A DNA stretch of 64,000 bases from an uncultured Gammaproteobacteria bacterium (GCA_943788815.1 CALSRS010000003.1:66588-130587); one strand, 5' to 3'. Positions 2,892-8,498 are shown, numbered from the stretch's first letter. Made by a program: numbers and translations. Notes: a model not told the origin generated them from the sequence alone.

Positions 2892-3491
2892 ATGACCAAT
2901 ATTAAACTGGGTTTTCTAGCATCACACAGGGGCTCGAATATGCAAAGCATAATTGATGCCTGCAATAAGGGAGAGCTTGATGCCATTCCTGGAGTTGTGA
3001 TCAGTAATAATGGAGATTCAGGGGCATTGGATAGAGCCGCATCTGAGCAGATTCCCGCTTATCATTTAAGTAGTAAAACATACCCGGAACCAGATGAGCT
3101 GGATTATGCAATTCGAGATACGCTATTAAAGCATGAAGTGGATATCGTCATTTTGGCCGGCTTCATGAAGAAGATAGGTCAACATACGATAGATGCGTTT
3201 GCAGGAAGAATACTTAATATTCATCCAGCCCTGCTTCCAAAACATGGTGGAAAAGGGATGTTTGGAGCTAAGGTTCATAAAGCAGTGCTTGATTCCGGAG
3301 ATAAAGAAACTGGTGTAACGATACATGTAGTCACAGATAATTATGATCAAGGACCAATACTTGCGCAACTAGCGATACCTGTTCTTGAAGGTGATACTGT
3401 AGACACACTTTCAAATCGAGTGTTAACAGTCGAACATCAAATATATGTCGATACAATAAAGAGAATCATTGCGGGAGATATTCAACTTTAG
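2892..3491 (+). CDS. purN: Phosphoribosylglycinamide formyltransferase (GAR transformylase), GGKGM variant
   Basis: The 199-residue protein has the formyltransferase fold: RGSNMQSI near the N-terminus for substrate phosphate binding, NIHPALLP with catalytic Asn109 and His111, and the catalytic Asp152 in TDNYDQGP. It would transfer a formyl group from 10-formyl-THF to GAR in purine synthesis. After NIHPALLPK the sequence reads HGGKGMFG followed by VHKAV, a variant I associate with Bacteroidetes-type PurN, whereas E. coli has a PGLHTH-like segment. It is not next to purM, its usual partner in many gammaproteobacteria, but follows pdxB at 11 bp. Function is well supported; the origin of the variant is an inference. 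Confidence 0.9.
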   Translation: MTNIKLGFLASHRGSNMQSIIDACNKGELDAIPGVVISNNGDSGALDRAASEQIPAYHLSSKTYPEPDELDYAIRDTLLKHEVDIVILAGFMKKIGQHTIDAFAGRILNIHPALLPKHGGKGMFGAKVHKAVLDSGDKETGVTIHVVTDNYDQGPILAQLAIPVLEGDTVDTLSNRVLTVEHQIYVDTIKRIIAGDIQL

Positions 3492-3533: not shown

Positions 3534-6005
3534 ATGTTTTCATTATTTTCAAAACTCTACAACAGATCTATTTTGGGGAATCCAGAAATCGTTTTATTAC
3601 TTATATTAATAATATGTATTACATCTGGTTATTTTTCACAGGACTTCAAATTGGATGCATCAGCAGACTCTTTATTGCTGGAAGGTGATGAAGGATTAAG
3701 AGTATTTCGTGAATCCAGTGAACGATTTGGTACTCAAGACTTCCTGTTCGTTACATTTATCCCCAATGAAGATATTTTCTCAGATACTTCACTGGACATA
3801 ATAAAGCGTCTCAGGGATGAATTAAGTAGCTTGCCATTAGTTGATTCCGTTGTTTCTATTATAGATGTTCCTCTGGTTAAAAATGCAGGTGGGAAATTAT
3901 CTGACGTTGCCAATAACTACAGAACTTTGCTTGATGCTGATGTAGACAAAGATGCTGCCCGGCAAGAATTATTAAATAGTCCTGTATATAGCAATTTGAT
4001 TATTAGTGATGATGCAAGAATGACAGCACTACAACTAAATCTTAAGAATGATTCAAATTATTTAAATGCTCTAAAAGAGAAAAATCGATTACTCATACAA
4101 AAGTCACAAGATAGTTTGACATCGGTAGCACAACAAGAACTAGAACAGGCTTTGGATACTTATGATTTGTCTAAGAATAATTTTGATACAGCCAACCACG
4201 AAAATATTATCAACATTAGAAATATTATTGGCAATTATAAGCAATATGGTGAAATCCATCTGGGTGGTCTGACTATGATTGCAGATGACATGATTACATT
4301 TATTAAAAATGATTTGATTGTTTTTGGTATAGGAGTTTTTAGTTTTCTTATCTTGATGTTGTCAATAATTTTTCGTGGTATTCGTTGGGTTGTATTGCCA
4401 CTTGCAAGTTGTTTTATTGCGGGTTTGATTATGATTGGATTGCTTGGATTTGCTGGGTGGCAGGTCACAGTAATTTCGTCTAATTTTATATCCTTAATGC
4501 TTATTTTAACGATGTCCATGAATGTTCATTTAATTGTTCGATACAGACAGTTAAACAGAGATAACCCAGGCCTTGACCATCATGATCTGGTTTTTGAAAC
4601 AGCCAGGCGTATGGTTTGGCCTTGTCTTTACACAGCATTGACTACCATGATTGGTTTTGGTTCTTTGGTAGTCAGTGAAATTAAGCCAGTCATAGATTTT
4701 GGATGGATGATGGTTTTGGGACTAATGGTGACATTTCTAACATCATTTATATTTTTTCCTAGTTTACTTGTAATGCTAAAAAAGATTGAAATTTCGGGCA
4801 AGGAAGAGGAGAAAACACCCTACACTGCTATCTTGTCTAGCTTTACTGAAAAGCATGGTTCTGTAATTTTTTTCATCGCTATCATATTAAGCCTGGTTAG
4901 TATCGCCGGGATTACACGATTGAAGGTAGAGAATAGTTTTATAAATTATTTCAGCGACTCTACAGAGATATATCGAGGACTGGAACAGATTGATAAAAGT
5001 CTGGGTGGCACAACGCCCCTTGATGTCATTATTAAATTTGATCCAGTAGAGGAGTATGGTGAGCAAGTAGAAGATGAGTTTGATGAATTCGATGATTTTT
5101 TTGAAGAATTTGAGTCAGATCCGGCTGATGCATGGTTTACAGCATATAAAATGGATCGAATTAAGGGCATCCATGATTACATGGATGGCTTGCAAGCAGT
5201 AGGGAAAGTGCTCTCACTTGCGTCGATAATACGAATGGCAGAAGACTTGAATGAGGGCGAGGCATTTGATGCATTTGAATTGGCTGTGATCAACAAACGA
5301 ATCAGTCCAGAATTAAAACGAAGCATAATTGATCCATATATTTCTATTGAGGATAATCAGGCTAGAGTATCCACGCGTATCCAGGATTCACTGCCGGACC
5401 TAAGACGTAATGATTTGATAAATCAGGTGAGGAACGATCTGAAATCTCAATTTGGAATGGATGATGACGACTTTGAGTTAACTGGTTTGCTGGTATTATA
5501 TAATAATATGCTCCAAAGCCTTTTCAGATCCCAGATAATGACACTAGGTGTCGTCATGATTGGTATAGCCCTGATGCTTTGTTTTTTATTTCGTTCAATA
5601 CCACTAGCGATTATTGGTATCATTCCCAATATTCTTGCAGCATCAATCATTCTTGGCTTAATGGGCCTGCTTAATATTCCCTTAGACATGATGACAATTA
5701 CTATTGCAGCGATCACTATTGGTATCGCTGTGGATAATAGTATTCACTATATATACAGATTTCGTGAAGAGTTTCCTAAGCAGGGCAAGGATTACATCTC
5801 TACCATGCATTATTGCCATGCAAATATTGGCAAGGCTGTTTTTTACACGGCAACAACAATTATTGTAGGGTTTTCCATTCTGGTATTTTCAAATTTTATT
5901 CCAACAATCTATTTTGGTCTTTTGACGGCACTGGCCATGTTAATTGCACTTTTGGCCGCATTGACCTTGTTACCCAGGTTGATTCTTCTTTTTAAGCCAT
6001 TTTAA
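3534..6005 (+). CDS. RND/MMPL-family exporter, probable lipid transporter
   Basis: This 823-residue protein has the twofold RND layout: one N-terminal helix (about 17-37), a periplasmic domain to about 255, a bundle of helices at about 258-420, another single helix at about 440-462, a second periplasmic domain, and a final helix bundle from about 665 to the end. The segment IAVDNSIHYIYRFREE matches the conserved region after helix IV or X in COG1033-type exporters. This is the family of HpnN and other hydrophobe exporters, not the tripartite drug pumps. The second periplasmic domain carries a strongly acidic run at about residues 505-530. mlaC follows 213 bp downstream, with ibaG and murA next. 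That context suggests a role in outer-membrane lipid traffic; substrate unknown. Confidence 0.85.
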   Translation: MFSLFSKLYNRSILGNPEIVLLLILIICITSGYFSQDFKLDASADSLLLEGDEGLRVFRESSERFGTQDFLFVTFIPNEDIFSDTSLDIIKRLRDELSSLPLVDSVVSIIDVPLVKNAGGKLSDVANNYRTLLDADVDKDAARQELLNSPVYSNLIISDDARMTALQLNLKNDSNYLNALKEKNRLLIQKSQDSLTSVAQQELEQALDTYDLSKNNFDTANHENIINIRNIIGNYKQYGEIHLGGLTMIADDMITFIKNDLIVFGIGVFSFLILMLSIIFRGIRWVVLPLASCFIAGLIMIGLLGFAGWQVTVISSNFISLMLILTMSMNVHLIVRYRQLNRDNPGLDHHDLVFETARRMVWPCLYTALTTMIGFGSLVVSEIKPVIDFGWMMVLGLMVTFLTSFIFFPSLLVMLKKIEISGKEEEKTPYTAILSSFTEKHGSVIFFIAIILSLVSIAGITRLKVENSFINYFSDSTEIYRGLEQIDKSLGGTTPLDVIIKFDPVEEYGEQVEDEFDEFDDFFEEFESDPADAWFTAYKMDRIKGIHDYMDGLQAVGKVLSLASIIRMAEDLNEGEAFDAFELAVINKRISPELKRSIIDPYISIEDNQARVSTRIQDSLPDLRRNDLINQVRNDLKSQFGMDDDDFELTGLLVLYNNMLQSLFRSQIMTLGVVMIGIALMLCFLFRSIPLAIIGIIPNILAASIILGLMGLLNIPLDMMTITIAAITIGIAVDNSIHYIYRFREEFPKQGKDYISTMHYCHANIGKAVFYTATTIIVGFSILVFSNFIPTIYFGLLTALAMLIALLAALTLLPRLILLFKPF

Positions 6006-6045
6006 CTTTATAGATTTAATGGATATTTTTTTGATATTCAATCAG

Positions 6046-6074
6046 TTAGCTATGGTTGTCGAGTCTGATATACT
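6046..6074 (+). promoter_or_regulatory. Candidate extended -10 promoter for mlaC
   Basis: An extended -10 element (TG at 6066-6067, then TATACT at 6069-6074) lies in the 213-bp gap between the RND exporter and mlaC. The upstream hexamer TTAGCT at 6046 is a poor -35. Transcription would begin near 6081 and leave a leader of about 138 nt. A leader hairpin, CAATTT-AGTG-AAATTG at 6131-6146, is flanked by GCCAG and CTGGT arms at 6123-6127 and 6157-6161. Its role is unknown. Confidence 0.35.
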
Positions 6075-6218
6075 ATTCGAAGAACTTTAATCTAAATACT
6101 AAATCAGACAAAGTGTATTTGTGCCAGGTGCAATTTAGTGAAATTGATTTAGCTAGCTGGTAACCCTTGAGCAAATTAAAAAGAATTATATTTAAAATCT
6201 ATTGACCAGGAGATGGTA

Positions 6219-6830
6219 ATGAATCGCTATGTTGTATTTTCATCGATATTAACAGCTATTATTTTGTTTTTATCGAACTCAGTTTTAGGACAAACGGAAT
6301 CTGCTGATGATACTGTTAAATCTACAACAACGATAGTAATTGAAAGAATCAAGGCAGAACGTAACAGGATTAAGTCAGACCCAGGATATCTCTATGTTCT
6401 GATGGATCAGCTGGTTGTCCCCAAATTTGATTTTCATATCATGTCCAGAGCGGTATTGGGTTCAGCATGGCAAAATGCGACTGTGGACCAACAAGAGGCA
6501 TTTCAAAATGAATTTAAAAATTTGCTGATAGGAACCTATGCAACAAGCCTTGCAGAATACGCTGACAACCAAATTATATTTCACCCTGCAGAAAGTCGGC
6601 CTGATTCACGGTTTGTACTGGTTAGGACAGAGGTTAAGGGGGCGGCAAATAATAATCCTCTACCCATTGATTATCGAATGCATCAGGTCGATGAAAAGTG
6701 GATGGTTGTTGATGTTGCAGTTGATAAAGTTAGTCTGGTCTCAACCTACAGAGGATCATTTAGATCTGAAATTAACAATGATGGTTTGGATTCATTAATC
6801 AAAAAGTTGGCAGAAAAGAATAAGAAGTAA
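6219..6830 (+). CDS. mlaC: MlaC-like periplasmic phospholipid carrier (Ttg2D/HpnM family)
   Basis: The 203-residue protein begins with a Sec signal peptide (hydrophobic core to about residue 23, likely cleavage after VLG). The mature part has the MlaC/Ttg2 fold signature, with the FDFHIMSRAVLGSAW motif and regularly spaced helices ending in a YRGSFRSEI segment. MlaC proteins ferry phospholipids across the periplasm between an outer-membrane MlaA complex and an inner-membrane transporter. I chose ATG 6219 over ATG 6213 because AGGAG at 6208-6212 sits 6 bases before it. The canonical partners mlaF, mlaE, mlaD and mlaB are absent; an RND exporter is upstream and ibaG downstream. HpnM of the hopanoid system belongs to the same family, but no hopanoid genes are in the window. 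Confidence 0.88.
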   Translation: MNRYVVFSSILTAIILFLSNSVLGQTESADDTVKSTTTIVIERIKAERNRIKSDPGYLYVLMDQLVVPKFDFHIMSRAVLGSAWQNATVDQQEAFQNEFKNLLIGTYATSLAEYADNQIIFHPAESRPDSRFVLVRTEVKGAANNNPLPIDYRMHQVDEKWMVVDVAVDKVSLVSTYRGSFRSEINNDGLDSLIKKLAEKNKK

Positions 6831-6937
6831 TAATCATTATTTAAAGTGTTTCTTCTACTATTCTCTCAAACATCCTTCCAAATAAATATGATGAGCCAGG
6901 CATAGACTGCCGGGCGGTATCATCGAACAAATAAGAG

Positions 6938-6943
6938 TATAAT
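6938..6943 (+). promoter_or_regulatory. Candidate -10 element for ibaG-murA-hisGD
   Basis: A perfect TATAAT at 6938-6943 lies 30 bp before the ibaG start in the 142-bp gap after mlaC. No good -35 hexamer is seen at the usual 16-18 bp distance, so the site may be weak or need an activator. It would give a leader of about 23 nt containing the AGGAG ribosome-binding site. Confidence 0.4.
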
Positions 6944-6972
6944 GCCCATGATAGGTATTTCAGGAGAGCACT

Positions 6973-8498
<1,526 letters not shown>

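Follow-up and report, generated by a model that had tools for sequence, protein, structure and literature searches.

An RND-family transporter gene in the place of mlaFED, beside mlaC, upstream of ibaG-murA in an uncultured gammaproteobacterium

The DNA analyzed here (the window) is a stretch of 64,000 nucleotides from the genome of an uncultured gammaproteobacterium (GCA_943788815.1). Reading of its open reading frames, combined with Pfam profiles, gave the gene order pdxB-purN-RND-mlaC-ibaG-murA on the + strand, with the following features.

1729-2880, + strand: pdxB-like dehydrogenase, conserved left flank (Pfam 2-Hacid_dh and DUF3410; synteny)
2892-3491, + strand: purN, to the left of the swap site, ending 42 bp before the RND gene; it keeps this position in relatives whether the slot contains the RND, mlaFED or no gene
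3534-6005, + strand: RND gene (MMPL/HAE3-type), coding for an inner-membrane lipid-transporter homologue; intact ORF of 823 aa (Pfam MMPL, 111 bits)
6213-6830, + strand: mlaC, periplasmic lipid carrier; ORF of 205 aa (Pfam MlaC PF05494, 168 bits, cut-off 26)
6973-7230, + strand: ibaG (BolA family), marker of the canonical mla locus (Pfam BolA; synteny)
7239-8498, + strand: murA, marker of the canonical mla locus (ORF; same position in relatives and in the E. coli reference)

The reference locus of E. coli K-12 reads mlaFEDCB-ibaG-murA at the corresponding place. The window mlaC adjoins ibaG-murA as in this canonical Mla locus, with the RND gene standing where the mlaFED(B) operon would be expected. 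None of mlaF, mlaE, mlaD and mlaB is present at the window locus, and its intergenic gaps of 207 bp and 142 bp contain no STAS/MlaB or MCE gene. The original prediction, that an RND gene and mlaC precede ibaG-murA and that mlaFED is absent there, was confirmed with coordinates exact to the base. Scanning of the window region for promoters and terminators gave matches no commoner than in shuffled sequence.

The nearest NCBIfam family of the RND protein is HAE3 (TIGR00921), matched with 188 bits, below the cut-off of 352; this is consistent with its earlier designation as COG1033-type. A Foldseek search with the AlphaFold2 model of the protein (pLDDT 80, pTM 0.68) gave MmpL5, MmpL4, MmpL3, HpnN and NPC1 as matches (query TM-scores ~0.65-0.70). 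By Pfam and by this model, the protein is assigned to the MMPL/RND superfamily, with the predicted fold of the lipid-moving RNDs. Residue D734 in TM10 is invariant in all 15 rows of the alignment, and position 330 in TM4 is an Asn in 14 of them. The one invariant aspartate of TM10 suggests that the RND may be driven by protons. As for MlaC, its relatives in the PDB are MlaC/Ttg2D, it reached 70 bits against the E. coli MlaC family (below the cut-off of 195), and its translation begins with a hydrophobic N-terminal leader, a putative signal peptide.

The content of the slot was then compared among 53 genomes of the order, which represent one family and 18 genera. An orthologue of the RND was found in 44 of them (58-81% identity where full length). 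The RND gene is followed by mlaC in 29 of the 29 order loci read, showing that the adjacency is not a matter of chance; on contigs that extend far enough, ibaG and purN are mostly present as well. The site shared by the relatives can be written secDF-pdxB-purN, X, mlaC-ibaG-murA, where X is mlaFED, RND or nothing. The slot is occupied by mlaF-mlaE-mlaD in L090, L092 and L103, with a STAS/MlaB ORF 3′ of mlaC in the last two, and is empty in L087, L088, L089, L091 and L104, where mlaC is retained without the RND. Because relatives of the same family have mlaFED, this RND or no gene next to an mlaC that is orthologous, we conclude that the RND took the slot of mlaFED; the identical flanks, the orthologous mlaC and the presence of mlaFED in the slot of close relatives bear out the claim that it stands in place of mlaFED with mlaC kept. 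Since E. coli also has mlaFEDCB-ibaG-murA, mlaFED is most simply the ancestral content of the slot and the RND state derived. Two of the loci with an empty slot (L087 and L088) come from congeners of the window organism, which keep mlaC-ibaG-murA and carry an extra mlaFEDC operon elsewhere (L189, L190). One other relative (G037) has tandem copies of the RND gene, in the order RND-RND-mlaC-ibaG-murA (L097 3574-8453).

In the MlaC tree, the RND-linked, FED-linked and orphan ibaG-linked MlaC proteins of the family form one group, outside which fall HpnM and the MlaC of a second mlaFED described below. Judged from these sequences, the window mlaC is an orthologue of the mlaFED-linked mlaC of sister genera. 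This grouping, together with the slot contents in relatives, points to the same carrier gene with its neighbour swapped. We also compared the residues by which E. coli MlaC binds MlaD, taken from published work (PMC10245069, PMC11289387). As a signal, loss of these contacts in RND-linked MlaC proved uninformative: the residues are alike in the FED-linked MlaC of the family, so that there is no sign of a lost MlaD contact, and the comparison would neither support nor exclude the RND-MlaC model. MlaC fusion proteins of 625-647 aa, deduced from open frames, proved to be artefacts of GC-rich open frames.

The genome of the window (3.23 Mb, 3 contigs, 99% complete) was searched for mlaA, mlaD/MCE and mlaEF. 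A second mlaF-mlaE-mlaD with a convergent MlaC gene was found at C2:~107-110 kb; the search for mlaB in this genome covered the window site. Also present are a second MCE importer (L007), the MlaE-type permease of which has 379 aa, and a PqiA-PqiA-PqiB-PqiC operon (L008 901-7930, C1:~258-265 kb). In the latter, the Pqi genes are followed by those for a LolA-like protein and for an RND of 908 aa, which has a cyclic-nucleotide-binding domain at its C-terminus; here, too, an RND is linked to an MCE system. The locus had been thought to form an MCE-free shuttle, a view against which a complete mlaFED elsewhere in the genome was to speak. Such a set is present and, with L007 and PqiB, it means that the cell of the window is not MCE-free; the idea of an MCE-free shuttle thus fails for this genome and holds for many RND-bearing relatives that have MlaC without MCE (see below). 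Because a full second mlaFED-MlaC is kept, the MlaC of the window could serve that MlaFED instead. On this view, the RND, an exporter of hydrophobes or drugs without relation to MlaC, would have entered the locus, and its adjacency to mlaC would be a clade-specific accident. Besides the second mlaFED, the five relatives with an orphan mlaC and no RND fit such an account.

The genome also contains hopanoid genes, namely those for squalene-hopene cyclase, HpnH, HpnB, an HpnG-like protein and HpnL. Together with the occurrence of HpnN among the family matches of the window RND, they would fit a pair that transports hopanoids or other triterpenoids as a displaced HpnN-HpnM. The RND scored, however, only 113 bits against the HpnN family TIGR03480 (cut-off 752) and 93 bits against NF052374 (cut-off 1100), MlaC remained below the HpnM cut-off (TIGR03481; 102 against 160 bits), and the true HpnN (897 bits) and HpnM (174 bits) are encoded elsewhere in the same genome. 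A displaced HpnN-HpnM was rejected on these grounds, and a hopanoid or triterpenoid substrate for the window pair is very improbable. The likeness to the HpnN-HpnM pairing that had been drawn at the outset therefore stands as an analogy and not as an identity. The single MlaA of the genome lies at C1:107 kb in an hpnH-hpnB-hpnM-mlaA cluster (L017 3621-7316) and, given this position among hopanoid genes, may work with HpnM and also with other MlaCs. A fourth MlaC gene (L018 5466-5999, C2:~402 kb) is shortened by an IS3-type insertion, with transposase ORFs at 6016-7358. It matches the MlaC of a second RND-MlaC operon of the relatives, the partner RND of which is absent here; the second pair has apparently disappeared from the genome of the window.

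That second RND is a paralogue of 42-47% identity present in about a dozen order genomes. In the loci read (L093-L096, L098-L100), MlaC lies immediately upstream of it, in the opposite gene order. Outside the order, the RND family was detected in 62 more genomes of a 370-genome draw from the class. Most of these homologues lie in varied contexts with no adjoining MlaC, as would be expected of an unrelated exporter. Against this expectation, the most recurrent neighbours of the RND outside the order are MlaC (5 families) and then MlaA (4 families), counted within two genes to either side of it in 48 genomes that represent 36 families, with MlaC and MlaA grouped by profile and the others by BLAST. 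For MlaC, we estimate the chance expectation at ~0.1 family (~1.5 MlaC copies per 2000 genes). The arrangements comprise MlaA-RND-MlaC (L143, L182, L183), RND-MlaC-MlaA adjoining murA in genomes of ~1 Mb (L155, L156, L159), RND-MlaC-murA (L134) and, in a record from a deltaproteobacterium, RND-MlaC-MlaA (L222). MlaC adjacency switches state 8 times on the RND tree. Co-occurrence of the RND with MlaC and MlaA, the check proposed together with the original prediction, thus extends well beyond the genome of the window. Among the loci from SAR11 and marine Alphaproteobacteria (L225, L230-L271), an RND of 47-54% identity has in SAR11 a conserved place between dnaB and cvpA-purF; a SAR11 RND beside MlaC was accordingly rejected, MlaC being found elsewhere with MlaA.

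The loss of MCE proteins was followed in genomes with and without the RND. MlaE counts, which cover the order genomes only, showed no MlaE in 15 of the 53, and 14 of these 15 have the RND; all eight RND-less order genomes at least 75% complete have kept MlaE. At this same completeness, the mean number of MlaE copies is 2.6 without and 1.1 with the RND (Mann-Whitney p 3e-4, kinship ignored), while zero versus some MlaE did not differ significantly within the order between genomes with and without the RND (p 0.09). The MCE domain was absent from 49 of 80 genomes tested, nearly all of them RND carriers and partly picked for lacking MlaE, and MlaC was present in 46 of the 49. Because of this selection, a fairer figure comes from the class beyond the order, where 39 genomes were picked by hand among the RND carriers: 22 of the 39 have no MCE domain, and each of the 22 has MlaC. 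The surveyed genomes include many fragmented drafts, MAGs and single-cell assemblies, but the MCE-free pattern was also found in the most complete ones. MlaC without MCE occurs in three one-contig gammaproteobacterial assemblies (G151, G217, G353), in a member of the window's own family (G017; 97%, 6 contigs) and in a 5.7 Mb chromosome record (G436). In SAR11, the MCE domain was found in none of 8 genomes (probably mostly incomplete) and MlaC in 6, beside MlaA in 5 of the 5 loci read. In MCE-free genomes, the MlaC gene either adjoins murA, mlaFED being absent, or shares an operon with MlaA; in many MCE-free gammaproteobacteria, mlaC has kept its place before murA, mlaFED is lost and the RND lies at another locus. 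A BolA/IbaG-like gene precedes the RND by one or two genes in three small MCE-free genomes (L142, L145, L152), the mlaC of which lies at murA elsewhere. The retention of MlaC and RND in MCE-free genomes, the recurrence of MlaC and MlaA as RND neighbours in other families and the MlaC adjoining the second paralogue all argue against an unrelated exporter brought into the locus by accident, which we hold to be unlikely.

We rather favour, with some reserve, a model in which MlaC has the RND as an alternative partner in the inner membrane, with which it would exchange glycerophospholipid, in a proton-driven manner, in place of MlaFEDB; the contact, substrate, energy source and direction are all inferred. 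In an ancestral mlaFEDCB-ibaG-murA operon, mlaFED(B) would have given way to the RND, with mlaC retained. MlaC would ferry glycerophospholipid across the periplasm and exchange it with the periplasmic domains of the inner-membrane RND, instead of with the MlaFEDB ABC/MCE complex, and the RND would spend the proton gradient on transport. MlaA may also be part of this exchange pathway. In the genome of the window, the RND-MlaC module would work alongside the second MlaFED-MlaC system and the Pqi system.

The direction of transport within such a pair can be argued both ways. HpnN and the MmpL proteins are thought to load or export their own lipids outward, and NPC1 accepts lipid from the soluble carrier NPC2. 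The nearest solved folds (MmpL3, MmpL5, HpnN) being exporters, the same module could run in the anterograde sense, with inner-membrane phospholipid loaded onto MlaC for delivery to the outer membrane. On the other side, MlaA, the outer-membrane partner of retrograde transport in E. coli, recurs beside the RND, and NPC1, which has the same fold, receives its lipid from a soluble carrier. Given the pair, retrograde flow from MlaA to MlaC to the RND, by analogy with NPC2 and NPC1, appears slightly the better supported; that the module exists and also runs in the anterograde sense is rather unlikely. A broader proposal, that MlaA, MlaC and the RND replace MlaFEDB altogether across parts of the Gamma-, Alpha- (including SAR11) and Deltaproteobacteria, with the proton gradient as energy source and not ATP, is put forward more tentatively and may well prove too wide.

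The Mla pathway has been described as universal in Gram-negative bacteria, with MlaFEDB as an importer (PMC11289387), and MlaEFD as its ancestral core (PMC10665443). Genomes that have MlaC (and MlaA where read) and no MCE protein contradict the picture of a universal MlaFEDB, and the RND offers itself as a specific candidate for the inner-membrane partner that MlaC lacks in them. The combination of RND and MlaC without an MCE importer in relatives points to an unrecognized lipid route between the two bacterial membranes. In the literature searched, we found no report of an MlaC-RND pair other than among the hopanoid genes. The debate on the direction and energy of Mla transport gains a natural experiment, in which the same carrier and the same slot go with an ATP-driven importer in one genus and with an RND in the next. 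If true, a widespread MCE-free pathway would mean that, in some bacteria that are among the most abundant of the sea, MlaC phospholipid traffic is powered by protons and not by ATP.

The window locus can finally be set against the known systems. It shares with E. coli Mla (MlaFEDB-MlaC-MlaA) the mlaC-ibaG-murA locus, the MlaC carrier and an MlaA in the genome, and differs from it by the RND that stands for the ABC/MCE complex MlaFEDB, a separate MlaFED remaining in the genome. The minimal MlaEFD of Veillonella, without MlaA and MlaC, is likewise an Mla variant that lacks part of the six-protein set (PMC10665443); it is the mirror image of the present case, MlaEFD being kept there, whereas the MCE-free relatives described here keep MlaC and MlaA and have lost the MCE importer. 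HpnN-HpnM also combines an RND of the same fold class with a carrier of the MlaC family, and MlaA adjoins HpnM in this genome, but the window pair falls under both cut-offs and the genuine HpnN and HpnM are separate genes. In BstA-BstB-BstC of Methylococcus, which transports C-4 methyl sterols, an inner-membrane RND works with a soluble periplasmic lipid binder (PMC10942540); BstB belongs, however, to another binder family, that of phosphonate-binding proteins, the substrate is a sterol, and the window RND reached only 20 bits against the BstA cut-off of 1400. NPC2-NPC1 and MmpL3/MmpL5 share the RND lipid-transporter fold at the TM-scores given above, while the homology is remote (11-15% identity) and the partners and substrates are different. 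By the tests made, the RND-MlaC pair is a member of none of these systems and appears, by analogy, to be built like HpnN-HpnM, BstA-BstB or NPC1-NPC2.
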